A stretch of DNA of 50,123 nucleotides from Deltaproteobacteria bacterium (lineage in GTDB: Bacteria; Myxococcota; JADLHZ01), in NCBI GenBank assembly GCA_020848545.1, contig JADLHZ010000144.1, forward strand, positions 1 to 50,123. The letters are read 5' to 3'. The notes under the pieces were generated by a model. It had not been told where the DNA came from, searched no databases, and was given only the letters and a program-made list of their open reading frames with translations. Shown here piece by piece: positions 7,211-49,858 of this stretch (positions are counted from its first letter, which is position 1; each line of letters starts with the position of its first letter). Both the position numbers and the translations under genes were made by a program.

Positions 7211-8500
7211 TTACGCCGAGGCCCGGTCGATCATCGCTATCCCGCGTGACTTGGCGATGCGGCGGTTCATGTAGACGACGAACTGCATCGCCCAGATGCG
7301 CGCCTTGAACTTCAGCGACGGGAAAATGTTGCCGGCGAGCACGCCCGAGATCGCGTTCATCATGCGGAAGCGGTTCGTAGGCCGAAAGAAGATGTCGATG
7401 AACGCTTCGTCGTAGAAGCCGTAGATGAAGGTCCAGAAGGTGCCCATGCCGCGGCGCATGCGCTGCTCGTAGGGGCGAAACGCCTTCTGGTCGGTGAGCA
7501 GCTCCGGCTTGTCCTTCTTCAACGCCGGCACCGCCAGCTTCACGATCTCCTCGGCGCAGCGCATGCTCAACAGCACGCCCGAGCTGAACACTGGATCCAA
7601 GAAGCACGCCGCGTCGCCGCAGAGCACCCAGCCCGGGCCGCTGAAACGATCGCTCTTGTAGGAGAAGGTGCCCTCGGTCATCACCGGCATGAGTTGCTCG
7701 GCGCCTTCCAAGCGCGCTTTCACCGGGGCGCAGTCGGCCATTGCCGCCTTGAACATCTCTTCCGGCTTCTCCTTCTTGTCGCGCCAGTAGCTGTGGTGCA
7801 TGACGGCGCCGACGCTCGTGACGTCGCCCTTGAAAGGGATGACCCAAATCCAACCGCCCGGAAAGCAGCCGATGGTAATCGAGCCTTCGTGCTTTCCGTC
7901 GAAGCGCTTGACGTTCTTGAAGTGGGTGAACGCCGCTGCCTTGTTCAGGATCTTGTCGGCCTTCCTCAGGTTCAGCTTCTTCGAGAGGAGCGACGCGCGG
8001 CCGCTGGCGTCGACCACGAGCTTGGCTTTGATGGTGATTGGCGTTGGGTCACCGTCGAGCGCGTGGGCGACGACGCCGACCGCGCGCTCGCCTTCGAAGA
8101 GCACGTCGTCGACCTGCCAGCGCTCGCGCACGTCGGCGCCGGCCTTCCGTGTGTTGTTCAACAGGATCTGATCATGCTCGTCGCGCTTGACGTGGTACGC
8201 GTAGCCGTACGGGCAGTCCATCGCGTTCTTGAACTCGTACATGTACTCGCGCTTGCCGTCGGCGGTGACGAAGTGCGCGCCGTGCTTCTGAATGAACGTG
8301 CTCTCGATGGTGCCGGAGACGCCGAGCCGCTCGTAGAGCTCGCGCACCATCGGCAGCATCGACTCGCCGATCTTGAAGCGCGGGAACTGCTCGCGCTCGA
8401 GGACGATGACCTTCAGGCCTTCTTTGGCGAGCAGGGTGCCCGCCGTCGAGCCGCCAGGGCCGCCACCGATGACTACGACATCCACATGCAGGGTGTTCAT
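7211..8500 (-). CDS. FAD-dependent halogenase-like oxidoreductase
   Basis: A 429-residue flavoenzyme. The N-terminus has the dinucleotide-binding GGGPGGS (residues 12-18), and FKIGESMLP (42-50) and GDAACFLDPVFSSGV (about 295-309) are conserved FAD-binding segments of the tryptophan-halogenase/geranylgeranyl-reductase superfamily. Residues 217-222 read WIWVIP, matching the WxWxIP motif used to recognise flavin-dependent halogenases, where it is thought to prevent monooxygenation. The catalytic Lys of true halogenases could not be placed with certainty, so a carrier-bound hydroxylase or dehydrogenase is an alternative. It is the first gene of an operon with a carrier protein (13-base gap), consistent with a tethered substrate. 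A 39-bp element repeated upstream of the FIST operon lies 16 bases above the start codon. Confidence 0.85.
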   Translation of the reverse strand: MNTLHVDVVVIGGGPGGSTAGTLLAKEGLKVIVLEREQFPRFKIGESMLPMVRELYERLGVSGTIESTFIQKHGAHFVTADGKREYMYEFKNAMDCPYGYAYHVKRDEHDQILLNNTRKAGADVRERWQVDDVLFEGERAVGVVAHALDGDPTPITIKAKLVVDASGRASLLSKKLNLRKADKILNKAAAFTHFKNVKRFDGKHEGSITIGCFPGGWIWVIPFKGDVTSVGAVMHHSYWRDKKEKPEEMFKAAMADCAPVKARLEGAEQLMPVMTEGTFSYKSDRFSGPGWVLCGDAACFLDPVFSSGVLLSMRCAEEIVKLAVPALKKDKPELLTDQKAFRPYEQRMRRGMGTFWTFIYGFYDEAFIDIFFRPTNRFRMMNAISGVLAGNIFPSLKFKARIWAMQFVVYMNRRIAKSRGIAMIDRASA

Positions 8501-8838: not shown

Positions 8839-10017
8839 TCACTCTTTTCCGAAGGCGAGCACCACCGATGTCGTGTTGTGGAACCCTGAGAAGTCCGAAG
8901 AGTCCAGGGCGATCTCTCCGTACGTTTCAAAACCACCGATCGGCGCTTTATCGAGCGCGTCGTGCATTTGTCCGAGCGCCTGCACGAAGCGGTCGCCCAA
9001 GATGAGATTGCGGCAGATGCAGTCGAAAACCAGCGCGCCGCCCACCGTGCGACCCAAACGTTCGCGGGCTTGCTCTGCGGCGCGCCGCGCGCTGAGCACT
9101 TGGCCATCCGGATCGCCTTGCATGATTCGGAACGACGTTCCGCGAGGAATACCGCACGCAAAGTTGAGCGATCCGTTTTGTCCTACGGACAACGGCGCTC
9201 GCACTTTGAAGGCTGATCCGCTGGCCAGGCCGGCCTCGAAGCGCAGCAGGAATGACCCTTCTTTGTCGGCGGGCAGGCGGTCTGCGTCGATCCCTGCGTT
9301 GCGCGCGGCGTCACGCGCCTGCTCGCGCCAAACGTCCCAGGCGGGGCGCCCGTCTATCGTGTGCACGACGTTGCCCTCTGCGCTCGTGACCTCGAGCGGC
9401 TGGGTCAGTGGTTGATGTCCGTGTGCGATGCCCACGGCCGTCGGATGCTTGGTGAACAGCTTCACGGCGACGATGGCGTCTTCGTGTGACTCCTCGTTCA
9501 CCCCCACGCGGCAGTGCTGGAGCTTGAGGTCATCGCCCGCTGCGCCGCCAGCGAGCCTCACGTGCTCGCCGAGCATGCTCGCCAGGCAAAGCGTGCTTTC
9601 TTCGCTGACGCCGGCGAGTGGGTCGAGCAACACCACGCCCGTTTGCTCCGGCAATCCCGCGACCTGCTTGGGCAAGCGCTCGGAGGCCGCGCGCGCGGCG
9701 TTTTCCGGGCTCTGTTTGAGACCGCGCCCGAGCGCTGCGTGCGCTTCGATGTCCCCGCCCAAGGCGAAGAGAGAGGTTGCCGATTTCATCTCCTCGCGGT
9801 TGCTGAACTCGCCTGCGCTCGACGCACCGACGACCAGCGTGCGGGGATACTTCTGTCGCAATCCGGCGAGCACTTGCCCCAAAGGCTGCGCGACCGAAGC
9901 GAAGGCAAAAACGACCTCCGGCTTCGTTCCCAGTTGGGCGTCGAGCTGAGTCACCCCGCTCTTGATGACTTGCTCCACACTTCCCGCTGCCAAGGCTGAT
10001 GCGCTTTTCAATGTCAT
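8839..10017 (-). CDS. FIST-domain sensor protein
   Basis: The FIST N domain covers roughly residues 10-215 and the FIST C domain about 220-375. Recognisable features are VVFAFASV, the LVVGASSAGEF turn, the LAGGAAGDD loop and GFETYGEI near the C-terminus. FIST proteins are believed to bind small ligands, possibly amino acids, and usually signal through linked kinases or chemoreceptors; none is adjacent here. At 392 residues it is a standalone FIST protein. The start MTLKSASALA at 10017 has a GGGAG ribosome-binding site. A frame start at 10098 would run back into the repeated element. The next gene (74 aa) begins four bases after the stop. Confidence 0.85.
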   Translation of the reverse strand: MTLKSASALAAGSVEQVIKSGVTQLDAQLGTKPEVVFAFASVAQPLGQVLAGLRQKYPRTLVVGASSAGEFSNREEMKSATSLFALGGDIEAHAALGRGLKQSPENAARAASERLPKQVAGLPEQTGVVLLDPLAGVSEESTLCLASMLGEHVRLAGGAAGDDLKLQHCRVGVNEESHEDAIVAVKLFTKHPTAVGIAHGHQPLTQPLEVTSAEGNVVHTIDGRPAWDVWREQARDAARNAGIDADRLPADKEGSFLLRFEAGLASGSAFKVRAPLSVGQNGSLNFACGIPRGTSFRIMQGDPDGQVLSARRAAEQARERLGRTVGGALVFDCICRNLILGDRFVQALGQMHDALDKAPIGGFETYGEIALDSSDFSGFHNTTSVVLAFGKE

Positions 10018-10093
10018 GGTGTTCTCCCGTGTCGAATGTTGCCGGAGATTGATAAATCCGCACTGGAAAGATGGCGCGCTCAGGCAGGGGCAT

Positions 10094-10132
10094 CGCATCG
10101 CGTCATTTCAGCCAAGGCCGCGGGGTATTTTG
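10094..10132 (-). promoter_or_regulatory. 39-bp repeated element, copy B
   Basis: The partner of 8517-8555, with three mismatches. It lies 77 bases upstream of the FIST start codon, in the 202-base divergent region shared with the caspase-like gene at 10220. It could therefore act on either side. The rest of this gap (10018-10093 and 10133-10219) shows no convincing promoter to me. Confidence 0.55.
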
Positions 10133-10219: not shown

Positions 10220-13165
10220 ATGAGGGTACCGGTTCGCGTTTCCATGTTCGCGGGCGCAAGTCCGTCTGTTCCCACGCGCGCGGTCGAGGCGGAGGCGAAG
10301 AAGCTCACGCCGCTGCGGGACGTTCGCTACGATGAGTACGTCGTCGGGCCGAGCGGCAGCACCTATCACGGGCTGGCGATGCGCTACGTGGCGCCGATCC
10401 TCGCGACCGGCAGCCTGCCGGCTTTGCCTGACGTACCGAAGGGCGGTCTTCGGCTGGCGACGGCGCAGACGAGCGCCGGCGACAAGGCGCTGCTCGTCGG
10501 CGCCGACGGGCGCCTGTGGGTCGGGCAGGAGAACGCTGGTGGCAGCGGTGACGAAGTCTCGGCGATCGTCATGCTCGCGCAGCAAGGGCTCGTGCAGCCG
10601 TTCTTTGCCGTGAACGATGCGCCCACGCTGCAAGCGATCGCCGGCCGTCTCGCGCAGGTGCACCGCGCGCTCGTCCTGTCGCCCTACATCACGCCGCCCG
10701 GGATTCCCGCCGATGCGGCGCAAGTGCGGGCCGCGACCTTGACCTTGTTGCTCGCTGCCGCCGTACGGGCACACGCGCTCGGTGCGGCTGATGTGCACAC
10801 AGCTCTCGCGCGCACGTTCGAAGAGCGCCTCGCGGCCGAGCCCAACACGCGCGACTTCTATGGCGCGCAAGCGACTGCGGCGGCCGCGCGTGGCGAGGCG
10901 CCGGCGTTCGCGAGCTCTGCCGAGGTCGCTGACGTGTCGAAGCTGCCCTATGCGAAGTGGGAGCGCGACGGCGTCGCTCGCCTGTTGATTTATCCCGACG
11001 ACATGGGCTCGCCGCGCACGAGAGTGGCCCAAGCCATCGTCGCCATGGACTTCGGTGCCGAGGGCATGGCCGATGGTTGGACGCGCTTTCGGCCGAACGA
11101 GACCGTCGCCGGCGAGCTGCCGATCGAGATCGACTTGGCGCCGGGCGGGAGCCACAGCCAGCTGCTCGGGCGTATCGACGAGGACGCCGTCGACGGTGTC
11201 GTCTACACTGGTCACGCCGGCTACGGCGCGTTCGTCGATCGCTTGGACGCGACGGCAACCGCCGGCGACGGCAAGCTCATCGTCATCCTGCAGTGCAGCG
11301 GCGTGCATAGCGCCAACACGATCAAGCAGAAGCTGCCGGCGGCGCAGCTCGTGTCGACGACGGCCTCGAGCAACGATGACTACGACATGATCATGCTCGC
11401 TGCGCTGGTCGCAGGCGTTCGCAAGCGGGTCGACTGGCGCACGATCCACGCGAGCACGCAGAGTAAGCTGCGCGAGGCCTTTCCAAGCGCCGACCTCAGC
11501 CAGCAGTACTTCTATCCGAACCAGGTCGAGAGGGGCGAGACGTCGGTCGATCGCGATCGCGACGGCGTCTCGGACGAGCGCGACAGCGTCTTCAGCAGCG
11601 TAGCGCCCACCAGCATGTCGGATCTGTCGTCCGTCCGCGCGGCTTCACCTCCGCTCGCGAGCTATCGGCTCAGCGGTGAAGCGTTGATGCGCGCCGTCGA
11701 CAACGTGGCCCTCGTGCTTCGCAACTCGCACATGCTGACCGCCGCCGCCGAGGCGAAGAGCGCGTGGAGCGCGAGCGCGATCGTGGCGGAAGGTTACTTC
11801 ACGCCTGCCGCCGGCCAGCAGGACGCGTTTCGCTTTTCCTTCGACGCGAAGCGGACGTTCTCCGTCGCGCTGAGCACGCACCTGAGCCACATCGACGAGT
11901 GGACGTTGAGCCAAATGCTCGCGCTCGAAGCCGCGCGCTTCATTGCCGCGCGAGCCGGACTGACACCGGCGCAGGAGACGACGCTCGCGCTCGGGATGCT
12001 CGAGCGCCTGGTGCACCAGACGGCCGCGCGTTATGCGGGCGTCCTCATCGCGTCGCGTATTCCGCGCGACGCATCGATGCTCACGCGCTACGGCCTCGAT
12101 CCCGGGGCTGCGATCGAGGCGATGGAGGCCGCGCAAGATCCGGAGGACTTCGAAGTCTCGCACCTGACGAAGATCGGCACCATCGTCACAGCGCGCGGCT
12201 TGCGCATCGGCGCCGCGCGCGAAGCGGGGCGGGATCTCTGGCGCGACGGAATGCGGCGCTCCAGCTGGAGCGCCGACGGGCTGGCAGAAGCACTGGGCTT
12301 ACCCGGCCAGCTCTCCGGCGAGTACCCGTTCTACCGCTGGGAGCATGACGGGATCGAAGAGCGCCTCGACGCCGAGATGGAGTCAGGCACCGGCCGCGTC
12401 TTGCACGTCTGGGCGCAGCGCTTCGACTTCGAGGTCCTGCGCCAAGTCGAGCTGCAGTGGTTGCTCGTCGGCTCCGGGTTCATGCCCGCTCGGGTCGCGA
12501 CGCTCATGGAGATCTACAAACAGGCGCGCCGCGACGGGCGAGATCGCTATGCCGCGGCCGATCGGGTGGCCGCCGCTTTCCAGGTGGCGGATGGAACGGC
12601 GCCGTCAACATTTCTCAACTCTGGGCCGTCGCGCGACGTTGCGTGGGGCTGGAGCGATGAGCAGAAGCTCAAGGCGCGGAACCTCGCCTACCTCCTCGAT
12701 CTCGGCCTGCCGTCGTCGCGCATCGGCGAGTGCTTGCGTGTCTATCGAAGGTTGCCGGAAGAGGTGAAGGCCGACTCGGCGCGCGTCGCGGTCGCCTGTC
12801 TCGCCGAGATCGACGACGCGGCCGTGCGTTCGCTGCCGATCGTCGGGCGCTTCGGCCTCGTTGCGAGCGCGCTGGCGGCCTCGGTGGACGAGGCGGGCTA
12901 CGCGCGGGAACGAGCCGCGGCCTTGCGCGCCGTGCGGATGACGCTGGTGCAGTGGCTCATCGAGGAGAACCGCTCGCAGATGCCCGCGCTGGACGCGCGC
13001 GCCGAGCGGGCGTTGATCGAAGCCGCGGGCTCGACCACGGATGCGGTCGTCGCGATGCAGCGCATGCGCCGCGTGGCGCTCGCGCGCCACCTCGATGCGT
13101 TCGGCAACGTCTTCACGGCGTCGTCGTTGCTCACGCCGGCCGAGCGGGAGCGGTCGTCCCGATGA
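10220..13165 (+). CDS. large protein with candidate caspase-like domain, paralogue 1
   Basis: A 981-residue protein that I could not assign to a named family. N-terminal part (about 60-130) contains GGLRLATAQTSAGDKALLV and DGRLWVG. Residues about 250-400 resemble a caspase/gingipain-type (clan CD) fold: a strand ending GVVYTGHAGYG with His332, then 27 residues later a strand ending KLIVILQCSG with Cys359. These resemble the His-Gly and Gln-x-Cys sites of caspases, although spacing is shorter than in caspase-3. A DxDxDGxxD motif, VDRDRDGVSDERD (about 443-455), follows and is like a thrombospondin type 3 calcium-binding turn. The C-terminal half is helical and of unknown function. No signal peptide is visible. 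It overlaps its paralogue by four bases (ATGA). Start chosen at ATG 10220; an upstream extension to 9962 is unlikely. Catalysis is inferred. Confidence 0.85.
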   Translation: MRVPVRVSMFAGASPSVPTRAVEAEAKKLTPLRDVRYDEYVVGPSGSTYHGLAMRYVAPILATGSLPALPDVPKGGLRLATAQTSAGDKALLVGADGRLWVGQENAGGSGDEVSAIVMLAQQGLVQPFFAVNDAPTLQAIAGRLAQVHRALVLSPYITPPGIPADAAQVRAATLTLLLAAAVRAHALGAADVHTALARTFEERLAAEPNTRDFYGAQATAAAARGEAPAFASSAEVADVSKLPYAKWERDGVARLLIYPDDMGSPRTRVAQAIVAMDFGAEGMADGWTRFRPNETVAGELPIEIDLAPGGSHSQLLGRIDEDAVDGVVYTGHAGYGAFVDRLDATATAGDGKLIVILQCSGVHSANTIKQKLPAAQLVSTTASSNDDYDMIMLAALVAGVRKRVDWRTIHASTQSKLREAFPSADLSQQYFYPNQVERGETSVDRDRDGVSDERDSVFSSVAPTSMSDLSSVRAASPPLASYRLSGEALMRAVDNVALVLRNSHMLTAAAEAKSAWSASAIVAEGYFTPAAGQQDAFRFSFDAKRTFSVALSTHLSHIDEWTLSQMLALEAARFIAARAGLTPAQETTLALGMLERLVHQTAARYAGVLIASRIPRDASMLTRYGLDPGAAIEAMEAAQDPEDFEVSHLTKIGTIVTARGLRIGAAREAGRDLWRDGMRRSSWSADGLAEALGLPGQLSGEYPFYRWEHDGIEERLDAEMESGTGRVLHVWAQRFDFEVLRQVELQWLLVGSGFMPARVATLMEIYKQARRDGRDRYAAADRVAAAFQVADGTAPSTFLNSGPSRDVAWGWSDEQKLKARNLAYLLDLGLPSSRIGECLRVYRRLPEEVKADSARVAVACLAEIDDAAVRSLPIVGRFGLVASALAASVDEAGYARERAAALRAVRMTLVQWLIEENRSQMPALDARAERALIEAAGSTTDAVVAMQRMRRVALARHLDAFGNVFTASSLLTPAERERSSR

Positions 13166-16059
13166 AGACACGTCTCGTGACCAAGGCGAAGCCGCCACTG
13201 CCGCCTCCGGAGGCAGTGCGACGCGCGCCGCTGCGCACCGTGCGCGTGGATCCCGCCGCGGAACCACGCTGTGGCGCGCGCGCCCGAGAAGAGACGGCGA
13301 AGACGATCTCGGCGCTGCCTGCGTCGTCGGTCATGCTCGCGGTCCCCGAGGGTGGCCTTCGTCTCACGGCCGCGAAGACGCGCGCCGGTGAAGCGGCGAT
13401 CAGCATCGGCGGCGATGGTCGGCTGGGCATCGGCACGGCTAGCGGCGACGAGCTCTTCGCGATCAACGCGCTCGCGGTGCAAGGGCTCGTTTCGCCGTTC
13501 GCGTCCCTCACCCGGACCGAGGAGCTCGTGGCAGTCGCGGCGCGCCTCGAGCAGATCCACCGTGCGCTCATCGTTCCGCAGCCGACGTGCGACTCTCACG
13601 AGATCCGCGCCGCGGTGCTCGCCCTGCACCTCGCGCTCGTCGTCCGGGCGCGGGAGATCGATTTGGCGTTGCACAAGACGATCGGCGAGCGCCACCGCCA
13701 GCGCGTGGAGGCCGAGCCGCTGATCGCCGTGCGCAACTTTGCCAAGGCGCAGGCGCTGTCGACCTTTCGTCGTGGCGAGGCGCCGGCCTTCGCCGAGTGG
13801 GCCAAGATCGCGGACGTCTCAAGGCCGCCCTACGAGCGCTGGAGGAAAAACGGCGCCCACCTCCTCTATTATATAGATGACGCGGGCTCGACCCGCGATC
13901 GGGCAACGAAACAGCTGTGCGACATGGGCTTTCCGCCAGGCGTCGACGTGAACGGCTGGACCCGCTTCACGATGCCCGCGGAGAACGGAGCGCTGCCGAT
14001 CGTCATCGATCTGGCGCCCAAGGGCGAGCATCGAAAGCTCTTCGAGCGCTTGACCGATGACGACATCGACGGCGTCATCTACAGCGGCCACGCGGGCTAC
14101 GGCCAATATGTGCACGAGCTCACCAAGAACGGTGCGAAGTCCACGGGCGAAGGCAAGCTCATCGTTCTCTTGCAGTGCACCGGGATCGCGAGCGCCGGCG
14201 CCATCCACGAGGTCCTGCCGAACGCGCAGCTCGTGTCGACGAACGCGATGACCTACGATCAATACGACCAGCACCTGCTCGGGGCGATGGTGAGTGGCTT
14301 CCAACGCGAGGCCGACTGGCAGTCGATCCGCGCCGACGCGCAAGCCCGGCTCACCAAGGAGTTTGCGGCGAAGAACCTGAAGACGCAGTATTTCTATCCG
14401 GATCAGAGCGGCGGCGCCGAGCGCGACATCGATCGCGACAAGGACGGCGTCGCTGACGAGCGCGATCCGCTCTATTCGTTCGTGACCGGCGCTGATCAGG
14501 CGGTGACGATCGCCGTCTCGCGCGTCGTGCAGGCGCAGCCCGCGCACGCGTTGCGAGGCACGGGCGCGCTGCAAGCGATCGACGACTTCACGCTCGTCAT
14601 CCGCAACGCGAACATGCTGCCGGAGAAGAGCGAGGCGGCGACGCCGTGGCAGACCGAGCGTGTCATCTCGGACGGCCTCTTCGATCCTGCGATGGGCGAG
14701 ACGGCGGCGTTTCGCTTCGCGTACGATCGAGAGACGAGCACGCTGTCGATCGCGTTGAACGCGGAGCTCGCGCACTTGGACGAGCTCACCCTCGGCGAGC
14801 TCATCGCGATCGATGGCGCGCGCTTCTTCGCGGCGCAAGCGAAGCTCGACACGGTACAGACGGCGGCGCTCGCGTTGGCGTTCGTCGAGCGCGTGCGGCA
14901 CCAGACCGCCGAGCGCAGGAAAGAGCTCTGGCGTTCGCCGCACCGCCAGCACCTCGCGCTCCTTCGCTATGGTCTCGCTCCTGCGGCCGCAGAGCGCGTG
15001 ATGACGAGCCTTGCCGAGCCCGAAGACTTCGAGCGCAAGCACTACGATGCGTTGGTGAAGCGCGTGCGGGCCGAGCGGCTCGTATTGCAGGCGCCGCGCG
15101 ATCTCGTTGGGCGCGACGTGTGGCTCGGCCAGGTGTCGGCGTCGCTGCCGTTCTCGGACCTCGCCAGTGTGTGGAAGCTGCCCGGCACGGTCACGGGCGA
15201 GGCGCCGGTCTTGCGCTGGGAGCACGACGGCAAGGAGGAGGCGCTCGAGATCGTCTTCGGTGAAGACAACACGATCGTCGCGGCGCGCGCGTTCCCGGCA
15301 GACTTCGAGCGGATTCGCCGCGCTGATCTTCGCGCCGGCCTGGCGCGGGCGAAATTTTCGCAGGAGCGCATCGAGCAGCTCACCGCGGCTTACGACGCCG
15401 CGCGAAAGCAACGCCTGCGACCGGAGGCGGCGATCGATCGCGTCGTCGCTTCGTTCACCGAGGCCGACGGCGACGCGGCCCTCGAGTTCGTCAACGGCGG
15501 CGGGGTCAGCTCGTCGCGGTCGGGCTGGAGTGGGCAAGTCATCGCGCGCTTCATGAGCGGACGCGCGCTCCAGCTGCGGCGGCTCGGCTTCGACTGGAGC
15601 ACCGTCGCCTCCTATCTCGGCCACGCGCGCGCGAGCACCGCCCACTACGTGCGGGCCGACGCGCTCGCTGTCGTGGCGACGATGCGAGCGATGCCTGTCG
15701 CTGCAGTCGCGACGATCCCGCTCGCCGTGCGCGAGAAGCTCTTCCTCGACGTGCTCGAGACGCTCGCGCCGCGCAACGAGCATGCCCTGCGAGCGAAAGA
15801 GCGGCGCTCGCTCGCGCAAACGTTCCGGCTCACCGACGCCGGCGCGTTCGTCGCTGCGATCGCGGCAGAAGTGAACGGCAACCTGGCGCCGGCGCTACGC
15901 AGCGAATTGCAGACCGCGGTCGACGGGGCAGCGGATCCGGTGAGCGCGATGATCGCCGCGCGGCCGGTCTTGAAGCGCGCCGGCTACGAGCCACGGCTGC
16001 TGGAGCCGTCCGGAATCTTGTCGCTAGAGGAGCGCGCGTTCTTGGCCGTGGTGCGCTGA
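13162..16059 (+). CDS. large protein with candidate caspase-like domain, paralogue 2
   Basis: A 965-residue paralogue of the preceding gene, collinear over nearly its whole length: EGGLRLTAAKTRAGEAAI, GVIYSGHAGYG with His310, LIVLLQCTG with Cys339 (29 residues later), then DIDRDKDGVADERD, the same long helical C-terminal part and the WEHDG turn near the middle. Both candidate catalytic residues are kept, so neither copy looks like an obvious pseudoenzyme. The N-terminus (MKTRLVTKAKPPLPPPEAV) is basic and proline-rich and differs from that of copy 1. The ATG overlaps the preceding TGA (ATGA), so the two are very probably made in fixed proportion. Two divergent paralogues suggest a heterodimer or a two-step system, but this is speculation. 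The convergent gene ends 43 bases downstream. Confidence 0.85.
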   Translation: MKTRLVTKAKPPLPPPEAVRRAPLRTVRVDPAAEPRCGARAREETAKTISALPASSVMLAVPEGGLRLTAAKTRAGEAAISIGGDGRLGIGTASGDELFAINALAVQGLVSPFASLTRTEELVAVAARLEQIHRALIVPQPTCDSHEIRAAVLALHLALVVRAREIDLALHKTIGERHRQRVEAEPLIAVRNFAKAQALSTFRRGEAPAFAEWAKIADVSRPPYERWRKNGAHLLYYIDDAGSTRDRATKQLCDMGFPPGVDVNGWTRFTMPAENGALPIVIDLAPKGEHRKLFERLTDDDIDGVIYSGHAGYGQYVHELTKNGAKSTGEGKLIVLLQCTGIASAGAIHEVLPNAQLVSTNAMTYDQYDQHLLGAMVSGFQREADWQSIRADAQARLTKEFAAKNLKTQYFYPDQSGGAERDIDRDKDGVADERDPLYSFVTGADQAVTIAVSRVVQAQPAHALRGTGALQAIDDFTLVIRNANMLPEKSEAATPWQTERVISDGLFDPAMGETAAFRFAYDRETSTLSIALNAELAHLDELTLGELIAIDGARFFAAQAKLDTVQTAALALAFVERVRHQTAERRKELWRSPHRQHLALLRYGLAPAAAERVMTSLAEPEDFERKHYDALVKRVRAERLVLQAPRDLVGRDVWLGQVSASLPFSDLASVWKLPGTVTGEAPVLRWEHDGKEEALEIVFGEDNTIVAARAFPADFERIRRADLRAGLARAKFSQERIEQLTAAYDAARKQRLRPEAAIDRVVASFTEADGDAALEFVNGGGVSSSRSGWSGQVIARFMSGRALQLRRLGFDWSTVASYLGHARASTAHYVRADALAVVATMRAMPVAAVATIPLAVREKLFLDVLETLAPRNEHALRAKERRSLAQTFRLTDAGAFVAAIAAEVNGNLAPALRSELQTAVDGAADPVSAMIAARPVLKRAGYEPRLLEPSGILSLEERAFLAVVR

Positions 16060-16102: not shown

Positions 16103-17293
16103 TCACTCGACGCCGTCGAACTCGCCGAGCACGTAGACCGGCTCGTCGTGGATCGTGTTGGCGTTCGGCGTGAGGTCGACGTGGAAGTGGTTCGCGTGCG
16201 CTGCGTTGAACTCGGGCGTCAGGATGATGTTGAAGACGCGCTGATCGTGCAGCGCGTGCGCGAGATCGTAGAGCACCTTTCCGGCCGCGGTCTTCGGCGC
16301 CGCTACGCCTTTCTCCCAGTGATCGAGCACGGTGTAGACCTCGCCCGTCTTCATCTTCACGCCGCCGATGTCGATCGCGCGCCCGTAGCCGTGCTGGCTG
16401 ATCGTCGTCGTGCCGGCGATGACGCGGCAGTTGTACGTTCCGATGTGGTGGATCTCGGCGATGTTCAGCGTCTTGGCGATCGCCATCATCTTCATGATCG
16501 CGCTCGCGAGCTCACAGCGCATGCGCAGCGGCAGATCCTGCGTCTGATCGTAGAGCAAGCGTAGCCCCTCGACCGGCGAGTTAATCGAGATCGGGTCAAC
16601 GATGTCGCACGTCTTCGGCGGGCTCGTGCCGGGCGCCACGTTACCGCTCGGCTTCCACGCGGTGTACGTGTTGCCGGCGCGCGCGAAGCTCATGCGGCAC
16701 TCGCTGACTTGCGGCTTCTTGTCGGCGGCCGGCACGCACACGTCCTGCACCGCGCTCGCGTCGGTGTAGCGCTCGACCGTCGAGCACGTGTAGCCCGGAC
16801 GGCAGCCGGTCATCTGAAAGCCGCTGAACGAGCAGCGGCTGACGCACACGGGGCCGCTCGGCGCGCCCGACACGGCGCAGAACGTGGCCGTCGTGTTCGG
16901 CGCGTCGGTGTCGGCGCAGAATTTTCCGTCGCATTCGAGCGAGCACATGCCGCCGGGGAAGCCCGCGCTCTCCTGCCGGCAAAACGCGCCGTCGATCGTG
17001 CAGTCGGAGGCGCCGGTGCACGCGTCGCCGACCCAGCCGTCGTTCATCGGCGCCGGCGGTGGGGGCGGCGGATCCGGCGGCGGCGGATCGGGGGTCGGCA
17101 CCGGCGTTGGTGTCGGGTCGGGCGCAGGCGCCGGCTCCGGCGACGGGTCGGGCGTCGAGACGATCGGCGTCGGCTCGTTCGGCGGCTCGTGAGTCGGCGG
17201 CGCTGCGCGAGGGACGCACGCGACGAAGGCGAAGAGCAGAAGTGGCATTAGCGCGAAGCCTGTGCGAAGCCCGTGGCGAGGGAGGCGACTCAT
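16103..17293 (-). CDS. lipoprotein with extensin/M15-like peptidase domain
   Basis: The N-terminus has a lipoprotein signal ending FVAC (Cys about 26), followed by a long Pro-rich spacer (PDPTPTPVPTPDPPPP, about residues 55-85) that could span the periplasm or cell wall. Next come cysteine pairs (GDACTGASDC, FCRQESAGFPGGMCSLEC), a disulfide-rich module seen in Myxococcota proteins. The C-terminal 180 residues contain SQHGYGRAIDI and HANHFHVDL, the zinc-ligand pattern of extensin-like/M15 D-Ala-D-Ala carboxypeptidases. It is probably a murein-active outer-surface or periplasmic peptidase. The start is uncertain: ATG 17293 gives the best signal peptide, while ATG 17305 and GTG 17335 are alternatives. 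If 17293 is right, its start codon overlaps the divergent tldD-like start. Confidence 0.85.
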   Translation of the reverse strand: MSRLPRHGLRTGFALMPLLLFAFVACVPRAAPPTHEPPNEPTPIVSTPDPSPEPAPAPDPTPTPVPTPDPPPPDPPPPPPAPMNDGWVGDACTGASDCTIDGAFCRQESAGFPGGMCSLECDGKFCADTDAPNTTATFCAVSGAPSGPVCVSRCSFSGFQMTGCRPGYTCSTVERYTDASAVQDVCVPAADKKPQVSECRMSFARAGNTYTAWKPSGNVAPGTSPPKTCDIVDPISINSPVEGLRLLYDQTQDLPLRMRCELASAIMKMMAIAKTLNIAEIHHIGTYNCRVIAGTTTISQHGYGRAIDIGGVKMKTGEVYTVLDHWEKGVAAPKTAAGKVLYDLAHALHDQRVFNIILTPEFNAAHANHFHVDLTPNANTIHDEPVYVLGEFDGVE

Positions 17294-18989
17294 GGGGCCG
17301 CGCATGTTAGTGATTTGCCTGGTCCTGGCAAGCACGAAATTTTCCGAGGCGAATGCGAGCGAAGCTCAGGTTTCTGCGCTCGACAGCAAGGCGATCTTCG
17401 ACGCGCTCGACCAGGAGCTCACACGCACGCGCGCGATGCGCCTCGAGTCGTATCCGCCGCCGTACTTCGTGGCGTTCGCCGTCGAAGACATGCAGTCGGT
17501 CGACGTCATCGCGCGCTTCGGCGAGGTGAGCCGCAGCGAGAGCCAAACGAGCCGGCCGATCCACGTCGAGGTGCGCGTCGGCGACTACGCCTTCGACAAC
17601 ACGGCCGGCGCCGGGGAGACGAGCGACCTCTACGATCTCACGTACACCGCGCCGCGCCTCGGCCCGCTCGTGTTCGAGCCCCGCGCGCTGCGCTCGGCGT
17701 TCTGGCTGCTCGCCGATGAGCAGTACAAGGGCGCGACGAGCGTGTTCCTGAAGAAGAAGGGCGCGCGCGCGTACCAGATCGATCCTTCCGACAAAGACGG
17801 CTGCTTCACCCGCGAGCGGCCGAGGACCGACGACCGGCCTGTGCCCGCGCTCGCCTGGAACGAAGGGAACGAGAGCGCGCTCGCGAAGAAGCTGTCGCGG
17901 ACGCTCGGCAAAGACAGCCACGTCTTCGACAGCACGGTCGCCCTGAGCGCGCAGCGCCGCCACCGCTTCTTTGCGTCGAGCGAAGGTGCGCGTCTGGCGT
18001 TCGGCCGCGTGATCTACGCCGTGCAGCTCTCGGCGATGACGCGCGCCAAGGATGGCATCCTGCTCGAGTCGAGCCGCGCGTTCTACGCCGGGAGCCGCGA
18101 TCGCTTGCCGAACGAAGCGGCGCTCGAAACAGAAGCGAAGGATCTCGCCGGCGATCTGAAGGCGCTCGCTGCGGCGCCGATGATCGATCCGTACACCGGG
18201 CCGGCGATCCTGGCGCCGGAAGCGGCCGGCGTGCTCTTTCACGAAGCGCTCGGGCATCGGCTCGAAGGCGAACGCCAGAAGGACTCGGGCGACGGGCAGA
18301 CCTTCAAGGGCCAAATCGGCCAGCGCATCTTGCCGGCGTTCCTCGACGTCATCGACGATCCGACGATCATGGCGAGCGGCGATCACGATCTGAACGGCCA
18401 CTACCTCTATGACGAAGAGGGCGTCCCTGCCGAGCGCGTGACGCTCGTCGAGAAGGGCCTGTTGAGGAGCTTCCTCCTTTCGCGCACGCCGGTCGAAGGC
18501 TTCTCGCGCTCGAACGGCCACGGCCGCGCCGAGACGGGGCAGAAGCCGCAGGCGCGCATGGGCACGACGATCGTCAACGCGCGCACGACCGTGAGCGATC
18601 AAGAATTGCGGCGCATGCTGATCGAAGAGGCGAAGAAGCAAGGAAAGCCCTACGGCCTCATCTTGCGCGACGTCTCCGGCGGCCAGACGAGCACCGAGAC
18701 CGGCGGCTATCAAGCGTTCAAGGGCGCGCCGCGCATGGTGTTCACTGTCGACGTGAAGACCGGCGAAGAGAAGCTCGTGCGCGGCGTCGAGATCGTCGGC
18801 ACGCCGCTGTCGGCCCTCGCGCGGATCATCGCAGCGGGCAACACGCCCAAGGTCTTCAACGGCTACTGCGGCGCCGAGAGCGGCTACGTGCCGGTGTCGA
18901 CGATCGCGCCGGCGCTGCTGCTCAGCGAGATCGAGCTGCAACGATCGAGCAAGGAGCGACAACGGGCGCCATTGTTGCCAAGGCCTTAG
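17292..18989 (+). CDS. exported TldD/PmbA-family metallopeptidase
   Basis: A 565-residue member of the TldD/PmbA family. HEALGHRLEGER at about 317-328 matches the TldD HExxxH zinc site, and Cys in NGYCGAESGYVPVS near the C-terminus matches the third ligand. TldD proteins normally form cytoplasmic heterodimers with PmbA, but here the N-terminus (MLVICLVLASTKFSEANA) looks like a signal peptide, so an exported role is likely. The start at 17292 has GGAGG six bases upstream; ATG 17304 is a weaker alternative. No PmbA partner is adjacent. Substrate unknown. Confidence 0.85.
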   Translation: MGPRMLVICLVLASTKFSEANASEAQVSALDSKAIFDALDQELTRTRAMRLESYPPPYFVAFAVEDMQSVDVIARFGEVSRSESQTSRPIHVEVRVGDYAFDNTAGAGETSDLYDLTYTAPRLGPLVFEPRALRSAFWLLADEQYKGATSVFLKKKGARAYQIDPSDKDGCFTRERPRTDDRPVPALAWNEGNESALAKKLSRTLGKDSHVFDSTVALSAQRRHRFFASSEGARLAFGRVIYAVQLSAMTRAKDGILLESSRAFYAGSRDRLPNEAALETEAKDLAGDLKALAAAPMIDPYTGPAILAPEAAGVLFHEALGHRLEGERQKDSGDGQTFKGQIGQRILPAFLDVIDDPTIMASGDHDLNGHYLYDEEGVPAERVTLVEKGLLRSFLLSRTPVEGFSRSNGHGRAETGQKPQARMGTTIVNARTTVSDQELRRMLIEEAKKQGKPYGLILRDVSGGQTSTETGGYQAFKGAPRMVFTVDVKTGEEKLVRGVEIVGTPLSALARIIAAGNTPKVFNGYCGAESGYVPVSTIAPALLLSEIELQRSSKERQRAPLLPRP

Positions 18990-23009: not shown

Positions 23010-24959
23010 TCACGGCGTCGCGAGCGCGCCGGTCTTCGCGCCTGGTGCCTCGGCCTTCGCCGGCCCGTCGAGCAAGTGTTTTTCGAAGAACAGCGCCGTC
23101 GCCTGCATGAAGAAGTCGCGGTTCACCCGCTTCTGAAAGCCGTGACCCTCGTCTTTGGCGAGCAGGTACCACACCTTCTTGCCTTGGCCGCGCACGGTGC
23201 TGACGATCTGTTCGGCCTCGGTCACTGGCACGCGCGGATCGTTCTTGCCTTGGACGACGAAGAGCGGCGCTTTGATCTTCTTGGCGTTCGTCGTCGGCGA
23301 GATGCGCTGCAGGATCTCGCGCATTTTTGGATCGCGCTCGTCGCCGTACTCGACGCGGCGCAGGTCACGGCGGTACGCCTCGGTGCGCTCCAAGAAGGTG
23401 ACGAAGTTGCTGATGCCGACGATGTCGACGCCGCACTTGATGCGCTCGGGAAACATGGCCAGCGACGCGAGCACCATGAAGCCTCCGTAAGATCCGCCGT
23501 AGACGGCGACGCGCTTCGGATCGAGCGCGGGCTGCGTGGCGATCCAGTCGAGCGCAGCGCCGATGTCCTTCACGGAGTCCTCGCGCTTCTCGGCGTTGTC
23601 GAGCGTCAGGTAGCTCTTGCCGTAGCCCGCCGAGCCGCGCACGTTCGGCACGAGCACCGCGAGGCCGAGCTCGTTCACCCAGTATTGCTGCGACGCATTG
23701 AAGTCCGCCTTCGACTGCGCCTCTGGCCCGCCGTGGATCGCGACGACGACCGGCACCGGGCCCTTGGCATCCCTCGGCTTGTACAGCCACGCCGGGATCA
23801 TGCGCCCGTCGAAGGTCTTGTACTCGACGAGCTCCGGCACGACGAAGCGCTTCGGATCGAGGCCGCCGACCTCGCTCTCGGTCCAGCGCTCGACCTTCTT
23901 GTCCTTCATCGCGACGACGTAGGCGTCGCTCGAGCTGTCGCTCGACGTGAGCGTGAGGCCGAGGCGCTCGCCTTGATCGTCGAACTCGATGCCCCAGACG
24001 ACGCCGACCGGGAGCGCGATCTTCTCGTGCGCGAGCGGCGTCTTCACCGGCGCGCGATAGACGGCGCTCCTGCCGCCTTCGTTGACCGCGAACGCGATCC
24101 ACTTGGCGCTCACCGCGAGCCCGTGCACGTCCCACGCGATCTTCTCGGTCAAGACCGTGCGCTTGCCGCTGGCGAGATCGTGCTGCACGAGGCATAGAAA
24201 TTCGCTCTCGTGATCGCTCGTGTAGAAGATCGACTTGCCGTCCTTGCTGAACGCGGCGTCACCGTAGGCGACCTTCAGATCCTTATTGAGCGGCTCGCTG
24301 GCGCCGGTCTCGGCGTCGATGAGGTGCAGGTAGCTCTCGGTGATCGAGATGTACTGGCGCGCGAGCAAGCGCTTGTCGTCCGGCGACCAGTCGACGACAT
24401 GCCACGAGCCTTGCACTTCCTTCAGTAGCTTCGGCTTCTCCGCGCCCTGCTGGGTGTAGAGGTCGAGATCTTTGCCGTTCCTCGCGTTGCCCGAGAACGC
24501 GAGGCGCTTGCCTTTGTTCGCGAGCGACGGGCTCTCGTGGCGCGACTTGCCGTCGGTGAGCAGCGCCGGCGTGCCGCTCGCGAGATCGTACCAATAGTAT
24601 TGATAGAACTCGCCGCCGCCCGAATCCATCGCGAAGTAGAAGCCCTCCTTCGGGCGCGCCGGATCGAAGAACGCGTTCGAGATCGGCTCGTTGAAGAAGG
24701 TGAGCTGGCGGCGATCGCCGAGCGCGCTTTTGACGCGGTGGATTTGCGAGGTCTCACCGAAGCGCGTGCTGATGAGTAGGCCGGTGCCATCGGGCGCGAA
24801 GTCTTGCAGCATCGCGCCGCGGGCCGCGCTGTACTGCGCGACGCGATCTCTGATCCGCGGCGGCACGTCGTCGATGTCGTCGAGGACGAGGTTGCCGATC
24901 TCTCTTTGTGCGGCGAAGGCGGGCGTCGACAGAAGCAAGAGGGCGAGCAGAGTTCGCAT
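23010..24959 (-). CDS. exported prolyl oligopeptidase-type (S9) serine peptidase
   Basis: A 649-residue S9-family enzyme. The N-terminus (MRTLLALLLLSTPAFAAQ) is a clear signal peptide; I chose this ATG over 24995 for that reason. An N-terminal beta-propeller part (repeated LxxxDxxSxxxxxL and SPDDKRLL-type segments) is followed by an alpha/beta-hydrolase domain with GGSYGGF (Ser490), KNDPRVPV (Asp574) and DEGHGF (His606) as the triad. It is probably a periplasmic or secreted peptidase acting on short peptides. It is a single minus-strand unit downstream of glpD (about 108 bases). Confidence 0.93.
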   Translation of the reverse strand: MRTLLALLLLSTPAFAAQREIGNLVLDDIDDVPPRIRDRVAQYSAARGAMLQDFAPDGTGLLISTRFGETSQIHRVKSALGDRRQLTFFNEPISNAFFDPARPKEGFYFAMDSGGGEFYQYYWYDLASGTPALLTDGKSRHESPSLANKGKRLAFSGNARNGKDLDLYTQQGAEKPKLLKEVQGSWHVVDWSPDDKRLLARQYISITESYLHLIDAETGASEPLNKDLKVAYGDAAFSKDGKSIFYTSDHESEFLCLVQHDLASGKRTVLTEKIAWDVHGLAVSAKWIAFAVNEGGRSAVYRAPVKTPLAHEKIALPVGVVWGIEFDDQGERLGLTLTSSDSSSDAYVVAMKDKKVERWTESEVGGLDPKRFVVPELVEYKTFDGRMIPAWLYKPRDAKGPVPVVVAIHGGPEAQSKADFNASQQYWVNELGLAVLVPNVRGSAGYGKSYLTLDNAEKREDSVKDIGAALDWIATQPALDPKRVAVYGGSYGGFMVLASLAMFPERIKCGVDIVGISNFVTFLERTEAYRRDLRRVEYGDERDPKMREILQRISPTTNAKKIKAPLFVVQGKNDPRVPVTEAEQIVSTVRGQGKKVWYLLAKDEGHGFQKRVNRDFFMQATALFFEKHLLDGPAKAEAPGAKTGALATP

Positions 24960-25046
24960 GGCGGCGGCGATGCCACGAAGGGCGGCGCTTGTCACTTGCG
25001 CGGCGGGACGTCCCAGGCCCGGCGCAGATGGCGCGGAATGTCGAAG

Positions 25047-25067: not shown

Positions 25068-26723
25068 TCACATCGCCGCGACCGAGCGACGTTCGCTCAA
25101 AGAAGGCCCCAGGGACTCGAAGTACTCGGCGTAGCGCGCGTCGGCGTCGTCGCCGAACAGGATCCGGCACGCTTCCTTCAAGCCGGCGGCGTCGCGCAGG
25201 TCCTCGTGCTTCGTCACCAACGCGATCTTCGAGCGGCGGCGCATGAAATCATCGAGCTTCGTGACCATCTCTCGGCGCGCGGCGTGCTCGATCTCGCAGC
25301 GGATGTACTCGGCGCCGTCGATCAGCACCTCGGCCATGCGCGGATCGGCGCGGATGTTCTCCAAGAGGCCGATCGCTTGGCCAGCATAGCGCCGCCAGAG
25401 CCGCGTGCTCAGGAGCTCGCTCGACTTCGGCGACGTGAGCTTGTCGAGCTCCATGAGCCGCGCTTGGTGGAAGAACTCCTCGCGTATCTCGGGCGCCGGC
25501 TCGCCGTACCAGCGCCGCGACGCAAACGGCGGCTCGAGGCCGAGGCGCGTCACTTCGTCGCAGATCTCTTCGCCAACGTTCAGACAGTCGGTGAGCTTGC
25601 CGCCGAAGACGCTGATGTGCGCCTGATCCGTGCTGGTCTCGATCGCGTGCTTCCTGCTGAGCTGCAGCCAGTCGTTCTGCGCCTGCGACGCGCGCGAGAC
25701 GACCAGCGGCCGCACGCCGCAGCGCTCGGCGATGATGTCGCTCGTCGTGAGCGGCGAAGCGAGCGCGAGCCGCTTGTTGATGTTGTCGAGCACGAACGCG
25801 CGATCTTGGTCGGTGATCGCGACCTCGGGCGCCTCCACACGCGTGTCGGTCGTGCCGATGCACGTGCGCGGGCCCATCGGGATCACGAAGAACAAGCGCC
25901 CATCGTCGGCGAAGAAGGTGAGGACGCGCCGGTGCGCGGTGAGCCGCCGTACGATGATGTGGATACCCTTGGAGAAGACGTGCTTGTGCTTGGTCCCGAC
26001 GCCGCTCGCGACGTTGTGCGTGTCGACCCACGGCCCGCAGGCGTTGACGACGACGCGCGAGCGAACCACGAGCTCTCTTTCACGCATCACGTCGCGCGCG
26101 CGCGTGTGCCAGAGCTGGCCGTCGCCGCCGGTCGTGCGCGTGCCCCCGAGCGACTCCGTGTAGTTCGCGGCGACGCAGCCGTAAGACAACGCCGAGCGCA
26201 CGAAGTTGAAGACGAAGCGCGCGTCGGTGTCGTGCAAGTAGGCGTCGGAATACTCGAAGCCGCCGTCGAGCCCGTCGCGCGCGATGATCGGCTCCTCTTT
26301 CGCGATGTCGTCGAGCGAGAGCAGGCGCGGTCGGTCGGTGAAGGCGTTGCCCATGAGCCAATAGAGCCAGCCGCCCGCGTACAGCTTGAAGCGCGAGTGC
26401 CGGAAGGTCTTCGAGTGCGCCATGTAGAAGCGGATCTCTTGCACGGTCGACGGATACGCGCGGATCAGTCGGTTGCGCGACATGCACAGCTTGCGCACCA
26501 GGCCGAGCTCGAAGGTCTCCAGGTACTTGATGCCGCCCCAGGCGAGGTTCGACGAGTGCTGCGAGGTCTCGCCAGCGAAGTCGCCGCGATCGATCAGCGC
26601 CACCTTCAGGCCGCGCGCGGTCAACGCCGCCGCCGCCACCGCGCCGTTGATGCCGCCGCCGATGACGAGCACGTCGAAGATTTGCGTGCCGAGCTTTTGC
26701 AAGTTGGTCTGGCGCAGCTTCAT
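25068..26723 (-). CDS. glpD: FAD-dependent glycerol-3-phosphate dehydrogenase
   Basis: A 551-residue glycerol-3-phosphate dehydrogenase that oxidises G3P to dihydroxyacetone phosphate and passes electrons to quinones. LVIGGGINGA is the FAD-binding Rossmann site; DFAGETSQHSSNLAWGGIKYLE corresponds to the conserved GlpD active-site segment, and GPRTCIGTTDT and GGKLTDC are further conserved motifs. No membrane helix is visible, consistent with peripheral membrane attachment. It is monocistronic by context, with no glycerol kinase or facilitator nearby, so glpD serves lipid or glycerol metabolism in general. It is divergent from the M3 peptidase gene with only 25 bases between start codons. Confidence 0.93.
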   Translation of the reverse strand: MKLRQTNLQKLGTQIFDVLVIGGGINGAVAAAALTARGLKVALIDRGDFAGETSQHSSNLAWGGIKYLETFELGLVRKLCMSRNRLIRAYPSTVQEIRFYMAHSKTFRHSRFKLYAGGWLYWLMGNAFTDRPRLLSLDDIAKEEPIIARDGLDGGFEYSDAYLHDTDARFVFNFVRSALSYGCVAANYTESLGGTRTTGGDGQLWHTRARDVMRERELVVRSRVVVNACGPWVDTHNVASGVGTKHKHVFSKGIHIIVRRLTAHRRVLTFFADDGRLFFVIPMGPRTCIGTTDTRVEAPEVAITDQDRAFVLDNINKRLALASPLTTSDIIAERCGVRPLVVSRASQAQNDWLQLSRKHAIETSTDQAHISVFGGKLTDCLNVGEEICDEVTRLGLEPPFASRRWYGEPAPEIREEFFHQARLMELDKLTSPKSSELLSTRLWRRYAGQAIGLLENIRADPRMAEVLIDGAEYIRCEIEHAARREMVTKLDDFMRRRSKIALVTKHEDLRDAAGLKEACRILFGDDADARYAEYFESLGPSLSERRSVAAM

Positions 26724-26748
26724 CGTTCTATTTTATACCCCCTCCACC
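26724..26748. promoter_or_regulatory. very short divergent promoter region with near-symmetric TATTTTATA
   Basis: Only 25 bases separate the ATGs of glpD (minus) and the M3 peptidase (plus). In its middle is TATTTTATA (26729-26737), which reads TATAAAATA on the other strand. Thus each strand has a -10-like box close to its own start codon, giving leaderless or very short-leader messages. A -35 for the peptidase may be TTGGTC at 26704, 19 bases before. No ribosome-binding site is well placed. Confidence 0.45.
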
Positions 26749-28776
26749 ATGCTCATTTCCATCTTCGCCCTCCTGGTCTCCGTCGACGCTGCTCCGCTCG
26801 AATCCGCCTTCAAGCCAGACGAGATCACCGTCGCCTGCGAACGCATCGAGAAAGTGAACGAGACGAAGCTCAGCGAGATCGTCGCGGTGCCGAACGACAA
26901 GCGCACCTTTCAGAACACCGTCCTCGCCATCGAGAACGCGAGCACCGACTACTACGACGCCGTCAGCCGCATCACGTTCATGAAGGAGGTGCACGAAGAT
27001 CCTGCCGTGCGCGCGGCCGCGGCGAAGTGCGAGGAGCGCAGCGGCAAGTACCTCGTCAACGTCGGCGCCCGCAAGGACCTGTACCTGGCGATGAAGGCTT
27101 ATCTCGATGACGCGGGAAAGACCGACACGCTCGATCCGCAAGACAAGCGCCTGATCGACGTGACGATGCGCGACTTCAAGAAGAACGGCCTCGAGCTCAG
27201 CGACAAGGATCGCGACAAGCTCATCGGCCTGCGCTCGCGCCTGACCACCTTGCAGACGAAGTACTCGCACAACTTGGACGAGTCGAAGCTGCAGCTCGAA
27301 GTCACGAAAGAAGAGCTCGACGGGCTGCCGGAAGCGTTTATCGCGCGCCTGAAGCCGGCGAAGAACCCGAAGAAGCTCGTCGTGACCACGCAGTACCCGG
27401 ATTACTTCCCCGTGATGGAGAACGCCAAAAAGGAAGCGATACGGAAGAAAATGCAGATCGCGTTCATGAGCCGCGGCGCCAAGGAGAATACGAAGCTCCT
27501 CGAGGAAGCCGTGAAGATCCGTTCCGAAGCTGCACGCTTGCTCGGCTACACGACGCACGTCGACTTCGTGACCGCGGATCGGATGGCGAAGAGCGCGACC
27601 AACGTCGAGCAGTTCGAGAACCGCCTGCGCGAAGGTTTGAAGCCGCGCCTGAGCGCCGAGAACGAGAAGCTCCGCGCGCTGAAGGCCGAAGAGACCAAGC
27701 AGAAGAACCCGAAGCTCTTCTCGTGGGACTGGCGCTACTACCTGAACCAGATGAAGAAGAAGGACTACGCGCTCGACGACGAGGCGATCCGCCAATACTT
27801 CCCGGCCGACAAAGTCTTCGCCGGCATGTTCGAGGTCTACGCGACGCTCTTCGGCGTGAAGATGGCCGAGGTGCCGGGCGCCAAGGTCTGGTCGAAGGAA
27901 GGCGTCAAGCTCTACGAAGTGAAGGATGCGAAGAGCAACGCGCCGATCGCGAAGTTCTACGTCGACCTCTACCCGCGCGAAGGCAAGTACGGCCACGCCG
28001 CGTGCTTCCCGCTCGGCCTCGCGCGGCAGACGGGCGAGGGCTATCAGATCCCGATGAGCGTGCTCGTCACGAACTTCAATCCGCCCAAAGACGGCAAGCC
28101 CGCGTACTTGAGCGTCAACGAAGTGACCACGCTCTTTCACGAGTTCGGTCACGTGATGCACGCGTCGCTGACGACCGCCAAGTACGCCGCGCTCGCCGGC
28201 ACCAACGTCTCGACCGACTTCGTCGAGGCGCCGTCGCAGATGCTCGAGAACTGGGTGTTCCGCCCCGAAGTCTTGGCGAAGATCAGCGTCGATCCTGCGG
28301 ACGCGACGAGAGCCATGCCCGAGGATCTCGCCAAGCGCATCATCGAGGCGCGCAAGTTCGACGCCGGCATCAAGTACAGCCGGCAGGTCTTCTTGGGCAC
28401 CTTCGACTTCAAGATCCACACGGGCAGCGGCAAGGTCGACACCGATAAGGTCGCCAAGCAGCTGTGGAAGGAGATCATGGGCACCGAGCAGGATCGCAAG
28501 GAGCGCTTCAGCGCGAGCTTCGGCCACATGATGGGCGGCTACGACGCCGGTTACTATGGTTATCTTTGGAGTGAAGTCTTCGCCGCCGACATGTTCACCC
28601 GCTTCGAGAAGGAGGGCGTCTTGAACCCGTCGGTCGGCCGCGCTTATCGCGACACGATCTTGGCCAAGGGGCGCAGCGAGGAAGCCTCGGCGCTGCTCGA
28701 GCAGTTTCTTGGCCGAGCGCCCAATGAGTCGGCATTCTTAGAGGGCTTGGGGATACAAGGAGCAGCCAAGAAGTGA
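26749..28776 (+). CDS. exported M3-family oligopeptidase
   Basis: A 675-residue zinc oligopeptidase of the thimet/oligopeptidase A family. HEFGHVMH (His464, Glu465, His468) is the HExxH site, and EAPSQMLENW supplies the downstream Glu. The family's KFYVDLYPREGKYGHAACF segment precedes it. The N-terminus (MLISIFALLVSVDAAPLES) is a signal peptide, so it is probably periplasmic and trims short peptides. The start at 26749 is used; a frame going back to 26473 overlaps glpD. The TGA overlaps the next gene's GTG (GTGA), so the two are coupled. Confidence 0.93.
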   Translation: MLISIFALLVSVDAAPLESAFKPDEITVACERIEKVNETKLSEIVAVPNDKRTFQNTVLAIENASTDYYDAVSRITFMKEVHEDPAVRAAAAKCEERSGKYLVNVGARKDLYLAMKAYLDDAGKTDTLDPQDKRLIDVTMRDFKKNGLELSDKDRDKLIGLRSRLTTLQTKYSHNLDESKLQLEVTKEELDGLPEAFIARLKPAKNPKKLVVTTQYPDYFPVMENAKKEAIRKKMQIAFMSRGAKENTKLLEEAVKIRSEAARLLGYTTHVDFVTADRMAKSATNVEQFENRLREGLKPRLSAENEKLRALKAEETKQKNPKLFSWDWRYYLNQMKKKDYALDDEAIRQYFPADKVFAGMFEVYATLFGVKMAEVPGAKVWSKEGVKLYEVKDAKSNAPIAKFYVDLYPREGKYGHAACFPLGLARQTGEGYQIPMSVLVTNFNPPKDGKPAYLSVNEVTTLFHEFGHVMHASLTTAKYAALAGTNVSTDFVEAPSQMLENWVFRPEVLAKISVDPADATRAMPEDLAKRIIEARKFDAGIKYSRQVFLGTFDFKIHTGSGKVDTDKVAKQLWKEIMGTEQDRKERFSASFGHMMGGYDAGYYGYLWSEVFAADMFTRFEKEGVLNPSVGRAYRDTILAKGRSEEASALLEQFLGRAPNESAFLEGLGIQGAAKK

Positions 28777-49231: not shown

Positions 49232-49264
49232 GCACCCTCGCGCAAGTGTTTCCAAAGAGACTGG

Positions 49265-49337
49265 GCTGGCGTAGCTCAGCTGGTAGAGCAACGGTTTTGT
49301 AAACCGTAGGTCGCGGGTTCAAGTCCCGCCGCCAGCT
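49265..49337 (+). tRNA. tRNA-Thr (TGT)
   Basis: A full cloverleaf: acceptor GCTGGCG pairs with CGCCAGC, D-arm GCTCAGCTGGTAGAGC, anticodon stem ACGGT/ACCGT with loop TTTGTAA (anticodon TGT), and T-loop TTCAAGT. The discriminator is T, and it is followed by AAA, so CCA is not encoded. It is first in a tRNA-tuf cluster. Confidence 0.96.
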
Positions 49338-49487
49338 AAAACGTCCGTCCATTGCGTGCAATCCGCGGCAATCCGTCGATTGAGACCCTGCTTGAACCGG
49401 CGGCAAAGCCAGTTCGAAGCACTCCCAATCCCCGGCCCCGCGGTAGAAAAACGGCGACTCCCTCAACCGAGCCGCCCACATATGATC

Positions 49488-49563
49488 GCGGGAGTAGCTC
49501 AGTTGGTAGAGCGTCAGCCTTCCAAGCTGAATGTCGCGGGTTCGAATCCCGTCTCCCGCTCCA
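49488..49563 (+). tRNA. tRNA-Gly (TCC)
   Basis: Acceptor GCGGGAG pairs with CTCCCGC, anticodon stem TCAGC/GCTGA with loop CTTCCAA (anticodon TCC), T-loop TTCGAAT, and CCA encoded at 49561-49563. The 150-base spacer between this tRNA and the first one shows no gene that I trust. Confidence 0.97.
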
Positions 49564-49695
49564 AGCTTATTCTTCTCGGTGTTCCCGATCCCTCACAAAG
49601 ATCGAACGCCACCGAGTCGAAGGGCCGAGATGGGTTGCAGCTGCAAGGCGCGAAGGAAGCAACGCAGCAGATGCGCCCATATCGGCCCTGAGCGT

Positions 49696-49781
49696 GGACA
49701 GGTGCCCGAGTGGCTAAAGGGAGCAGACTGTAAATCTGCCGTCTCGCGACTACGAAGGTTCGAATCCTTCCCTGTCCACCA
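49696..49781 (+). tRNA. tRNA-Tyr (GTA)
   Basis: Class II tRNA with acceptor GGACAGG/CCTGTCC, anticodon stem GCAGA/TCTGC with loop CTGTAAA (anticodon GTA), a long variable arm (CGTCTCGCGACTACG), T-loop TTCGAAT, discriminator A and encoded CCA at 49779-49781. Confidence 0.96.
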
Positions 49782-49782
49782 C

Positions 49783-49858
49783 GCCCACGTAGCTCAGTTG
49801 GTAGAGCACGTCCTTGGTAAGGACGAGGTCGGCCGTTCAATCCGGCTCGTGGGCTCCA
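49783..49858 (+). tRNA. tRNA-Thr (GGT)
   Basis: Acceptor GCCCACG pairs with CGTGGGC, anticodon stem CGTCC/GGACG with loop TTGGTAA (anticodon GGT), T-arm GGCCG/CGGCT with one G-T pair, discriminator T and encoded CCA. It starts two bases after tRNA-Tyr ends and lies 81 bases upstream of tuf. Confidence 0.96.

Follow-up and report, generated by a model that had tools for sequence, protein, structure and literature searches.

Organization of the locus

The window, that is, the whole stretch of 50,123 nucleotides of DNA that was analysed, contains two very large genes in tandem, P0001 and P0002, whose reading frames overlap by an ATGA (Table 1). Both genes were re-read, and their coordinates, lengths, overlap and His/Cys motifs are all as given in a preliminary description of the locus. 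The two proteins align over 973 positions with 38% identity (two-sequence comparison, E = 1e-169). P0001 plausibly starts at the ATG at 10220, although this start is unproven: the reading frame is open back to 9962, and homology to relatives starts only near residue 75. Peptidase genes of the TldD/PmbA, S9 and M3 types are clustered between 17262 and 28776 of the window. Across 50 homologous loci, no neighbour of the family members is conserved beyond close relatives.

Table 1. Features of the window, in order of position
Feature	Position	Strand	Remarks
FAD-dependent, tryptophan-halogenase-like gene	7211-8500	-	
Gene with FIST N and FIST C domains	8839-10098	-	Divergent from the pair
P0001, family A protein, 981 aa	10220..13165	+	Intact ORF, 38% identity to P0002
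P0001 N-terminal conserved domain, residues 75-235	10442..10924	+	Invariant R170; E207 in 41/42
P0001 candidate peptidase core, residues 236-440	10925..11539	+	
P0001 GHAGYG	11210..11227	+	His332 at 11213-11215
P0001 LQCSG	11288..11302	+	Cys359 at 11294-11296
P0001 DRDRDGVSDERD, residues 444-455	11549..11584	+	TSP3-type Ca2+ loop motif
P0002, tandem paralogue of P0001, 965 aa	13162..16059	+	Intact ORF, ATGA overlap, sister in tree
P0002 candidate peptidase core, residues 216-425	13807..14436	+	
P0002 GHAGYG	14086..14103	+	His310 at 14089-14091
P0002 LQCTG	14170..14184	+	Cys339 at 14176-14178
Gene with extensin-like C-terminus	16103-17335	-	
TldD/PmbA peptidase gene	17262-18989	+	
Kelch-repeat protein gene, 985 aa	19103-22060	-	DUF4215 repeats
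S9 prolyl oligopeptidase gene	23010-24995	-	
M3 oligopeptidase gene	26473-28776		
Four-tRNA cluster	49264-49858		Thr, Gly, Tyr, Thr

A lineage-specific tandem duplication

In a tree of the family, P0001 and P0002 group as sisters with a support of 100/100, and a second family gene adjoining a member was found in none of the 50 homologous loci that were read. The pair is therefore a lineage-specific duplication. The only locus with two matches, L054, looks like a single gene broken by a frame break. An obligate two-gene module was also considered as a conserved system, and was rejected for want of a second example among the 50 loci. The preliminary description had suggested a two-component protease pair and asked whether the two genes are conserved side by side; with 0/50 tandem pairs and a sister relation between the two proteins, this idea is left without comparative support.

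The ATGA overlap makes it likely that both genes are translated together, so that their products are probably co-translated, and one may speculate that they also associate with each other. A stronger version, in which P0001 and P0002 form an obligate heteromeric protease with the pair as the functional unit, would be an addition to the peptidase reading developed below and not exclusive of it. The co-translation implied by the overlap is consistent with such a unit, as is the fact that both copies have remained intact while diverging to their present identity. However, no other locus holds a pair, each relative is encoded by one gene and has the same core, and the dyad is retained in both copies, which together make an obligate heteromer unlikely.

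Conservation of the His/Cys dyad

Iterating a profile on the fetched loci yielded a set of 42 sequences with the candidate catalytic domain, referred to here as family A. The distance between the His and the Cys is 27 residues in P0001 (H332/C359) and 29 in P0002 (H310/C339), and ranges from 27 to 31 across the whole set. The columns of H332 and C359 are conserved in 42/42 sequences each and are the sole invariant His and Cys columns of the family, the next best His column reaching 35/40. The glycines G331 and G336 are equally present in all 42 sequences, and the C-x-G arrangement in 40 of them. In the full-length alignment of 41 rows, where mean column identity is 14%, the only invariant columns are R170, G331, H332, G336, C359 and P433, the first of which is located in the N-terminal conserved domain of P0001. 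In addition, C359 is the sole Cys within the first 837 residues of P0001.

The preliminary description had counted it as a weakness that the His of the dyad is followed by Ala and not by Gly. This is true of the pair, and Ala or Ser at this position is a trait of the whole family (Ser in 25 sequences, Ala in 16 and Gly in one); the absence of His-Gly remains a point against the clan CD reading. The family includes proteins of 1531 and 1971 aa from a single genome (L040 and L041, G192), the former being the one sequence with His-Gly. A helical, EF-hand-like N-terminal module (L004, L011, L031) is common among the single-gene relatives and absent from P0001 and P0002.

Directly after the core, 41/42 members of family A carry the thrombospondin type 3-like motif DxDxDGxxDxxD, which is absent from L070. 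This loop is a putative Ca2+ binder, and regulation of the family by Ca2+ is plausible, with the balance close to even. A Ca2+ requirement is known for clostripain (PMC4357240). The nearly invariant loop, together with the more distant copies in the host genome described in the next section, is an addition to the preliminary description.

Distribution and a distant branch

Relatives were sought within the bacterial phylum of the host, probably Myxococcota judging from GC content, size and overall character of the genomes. A search with a two-sequence profile gave family A matches in at least 31 of the 195 genomes searched, a lower bound since at most four candidates were scored per genome. Two to four matches per genome are frequent, and the proteins range roughly from 620 to 1970 aa. 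Searches at the level of the host's family and class returned matches in the host genome only, which is the sole member of either in the set searched. No relative was found among genome contigs with back-translated patterns of P0001 and A1, which proved too specific, in viral contigs with two homologue alignments, or in plasmids with tblastn and two queries. In a full-text search of the open-licence literature, no title or abstract describing the family was found.

A search with the core profile revealed a distant copy on the host contig C118 (E = 8.7e-6). The encoded protein (L076:6569-8551, + strand) has 661 aa, a lipobox-like N-terminus, two PPC domains and the motifs YNGHAGLG...FMNGC. When its first 433 residues were used as the query, a second group emerged, family B, present in 18/193 genomes and homologous to family A (hhalign E = 1.1e-14). 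The members of family B appear lipoprotein-like, some of them with PPC domains, which are often found on secreted peptidases and are typical of secreted hydrolases. The dyad His and Cys are found in 24/24 family B sequences, so that the conservation check proposed in the preliminary description finds both residues kept throughout, in all 42 members of family A as well as in family B.

Another host contig, C44, encodes around positions 249157-249441 (L077) a 717-aa protein with the motifs RGHLYDF...GGSC at a spacing of 28 and an EF-hand-like stretch near its N-terminus. It is possibly a third branch, with a score that is not significant (E = 0.83).

Profile comparison with clan CD peptidases

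No Pfam or NCBIfam model, PF00656, PF01364 and PF03415 included, matches P0001 or P0002 above its cut-off; no peptidase model of Pfam, NCBIfam or PADLOC recognises the family, and a profile search of the PDB gave chance matches only. Profiles of family A, family B and both combined (A+B) were compared with profiles of C14, C25, C11, CHAT and MglA-type GTPases, all built from the same phylum, the noise level being taken from 40 column shuffles and from reversed profiles.

Against C14 and C25, the three queries scored between 25.4 and 33.4, with a shuffled maximum of 18.1, and in each of the six comparisons 0/40 shuffles reached the real score. The single-profile E-values against these two families are modest (0.001-0.009; 0.0011-0.0086 for C25). 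C11 scored near noise with all three queries (E 0.13-0.35), the MglA GTPases were indistinguishable from shuffles, and reversed profiles stayed at noise level. As yardsticks, accepted clan CD families compared by the same method gave 3.4e-6 for C25-C14, 1.5e-7 for CHAT-C25, 0.001 for C11-C14 and 0.05 for C11-C25, which places families A and B at about the same remove as C11.

The motif order resembles that of C25, the gingipain-like peptidases (PF01364), with a predicted strand leading into GHxxxxG/W and then a strand leading into Cys. Here, both residues fall in register for two of the three queries (B and A+B), while for family A the His alone is aligned. Family A differs from C25 in giving no PF01364 match, in having His-Ala/Ser in place of His-Gly, in its shorter His-Cys spacing, and in its other flanking domains and Ca2+-type loop. 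With C14, which comprises caspases, metacaspases and orthocaspases (PF00656), the strand bearing the Cys is aligned when the query is B or A+B, and the Cys is likewise predicted to end the strand that follows the His; the match of family A itself covers the Ca2+ loop region, off the dyad. Differences from C14 are the lack of a PF00656 match, the His-Ala/Ser of 41/42 members instead of His-Gly, and a dyad spacing of 27-31 compared with 42 in caspase-7, whose dyad is His144/Cys186 (PMC4357240). In CHAT (PF12770), His and Cys are in register for all three queries, yet the score is near noise and there is no Pfam match. Finally, C11 (clostripain; PF03415) shows no profile similarity to either family, although the Ca2+ requirement of clostripain parallels the loop of family A, if this indeed binds Ca2+.

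A dyad and fold signals do not by themselves establish peptidase activity, and the core could instead be a three-layer alpha/beta domain whose catalytic His and Cys serve a non-proteolytic reaction on a clan CD-like scaffold, such as that of an acyl-transfer, amidase or transpeptidase-like enzyme. This is improbable given that the closest profile matches are the peptidase families C14 and C25, and that the family B member of the host bears PPC domains.

Predicted fold

The structure prediction called for in the preliminary description gave two AlphaFold models, built from two-sequence alignments. They are weak (pLDDT 58.8 and 61.8), and in both of them the His comes after one strand and the Cys after the next. 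The low-confidence model of P0002 has the order beta-alpha-beta-beta-alpha-beta(His)-alpha-beta(Cys)-alpha-beta, with His93 (H310) two residues past strand 87-91 and Cys122 (C339) one residue past strand 116-121, followed by a helix and a strand. The order around the Cys resembles that of the caspase fold, in which a 2-1-3-4 sheet carries His and Cys at the C-ends of its neighbouring parallel strands 3 and 4 (PMC4357240). If the modelled topology is right, the strands carrying the two residues are neighbours.

The best PDB matches of both weak models are small GTPases of the Arf/MglA type (Z 8-9, TM 0.3-0.5, Foldseek and VIA-align), and no clan CD family is among the best 50 matches listed for these low-confidence queries. 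The 2-1-3-4 strand order of the caspase core also occurs within the GTPase sheet, so that matches of this kind are expected from topology and neither establish nor rule out clan CD. A degenerate P-loop GTPase-like core with a structural or metal-binding His and Cys, to which these top matches would point, is highly improbable, as Walker A (GxxxxGK[ST]) and NKxD are absent from both proteins, the MglA profiles score at shuffle level, and the models that produced the matches are of low confidence.

Proposed activity and significance

P0001 and P0002 are tandem duplicates within a previously uncatalogued family, which quite likely consists of cysteine endopeptidases of the clan CD type (caspase/gingipain-like). 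The caspase-like interpretation of the His and Cys in the preliminary description is supported by a dyad that is invariant in both branches, by C14 and C25 scores above all shuffles, and by the predicted positions of both residues directly after consecutive strands.

In the proposed mechanism, His332 would act as the base and Cys359 as the nucleophile, each at the end of one of two parallel strands that lie side by side, in an active site shaped by the conserved glycines G331, G336 and G361. The core may be held or gated by its flanking domains, namely the conserved N-terminal one and the one that follows, and binding of Ca2+ at the DxDxDGxxDxxD loop right after the core could render activity Ca2+-dependent, as in clostripain. 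With a full dyad in each, P0001 and P0002 would each be active alone. No Sec signal was seen by eye in the proteins of family A, suggesting that they act in the cytosol or exit by another route.

A wider reading of the same family can be offered only tentatively. According to it, this would be a separate clan CD family, so far of one phylum and gated by Ca2+ through its integral loop, with large signal-less forms next to cell-surface lipoprotein forms, and with a role in lysis, predation or developmental cell death.

The host genome is rich in clan CD proteins, with 16 C14 domains, one C25, two C11 and at least one CHAT, and none of these recognised members is P0001 or P0002. Counts of caspase-like proteases in bacteria have used profiles based on Pfam C14, one example being a survey of prokaryotic caspase homologues with a profile trained on C14 (PMC3501461). 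The family of P0001 and P0002 goes wholly unrecognised by the C14 model, even where that model finds 16 domains in the same genome. If the family does cut proteins, the caspase-like repertoire of these bacteria has been undercounted.
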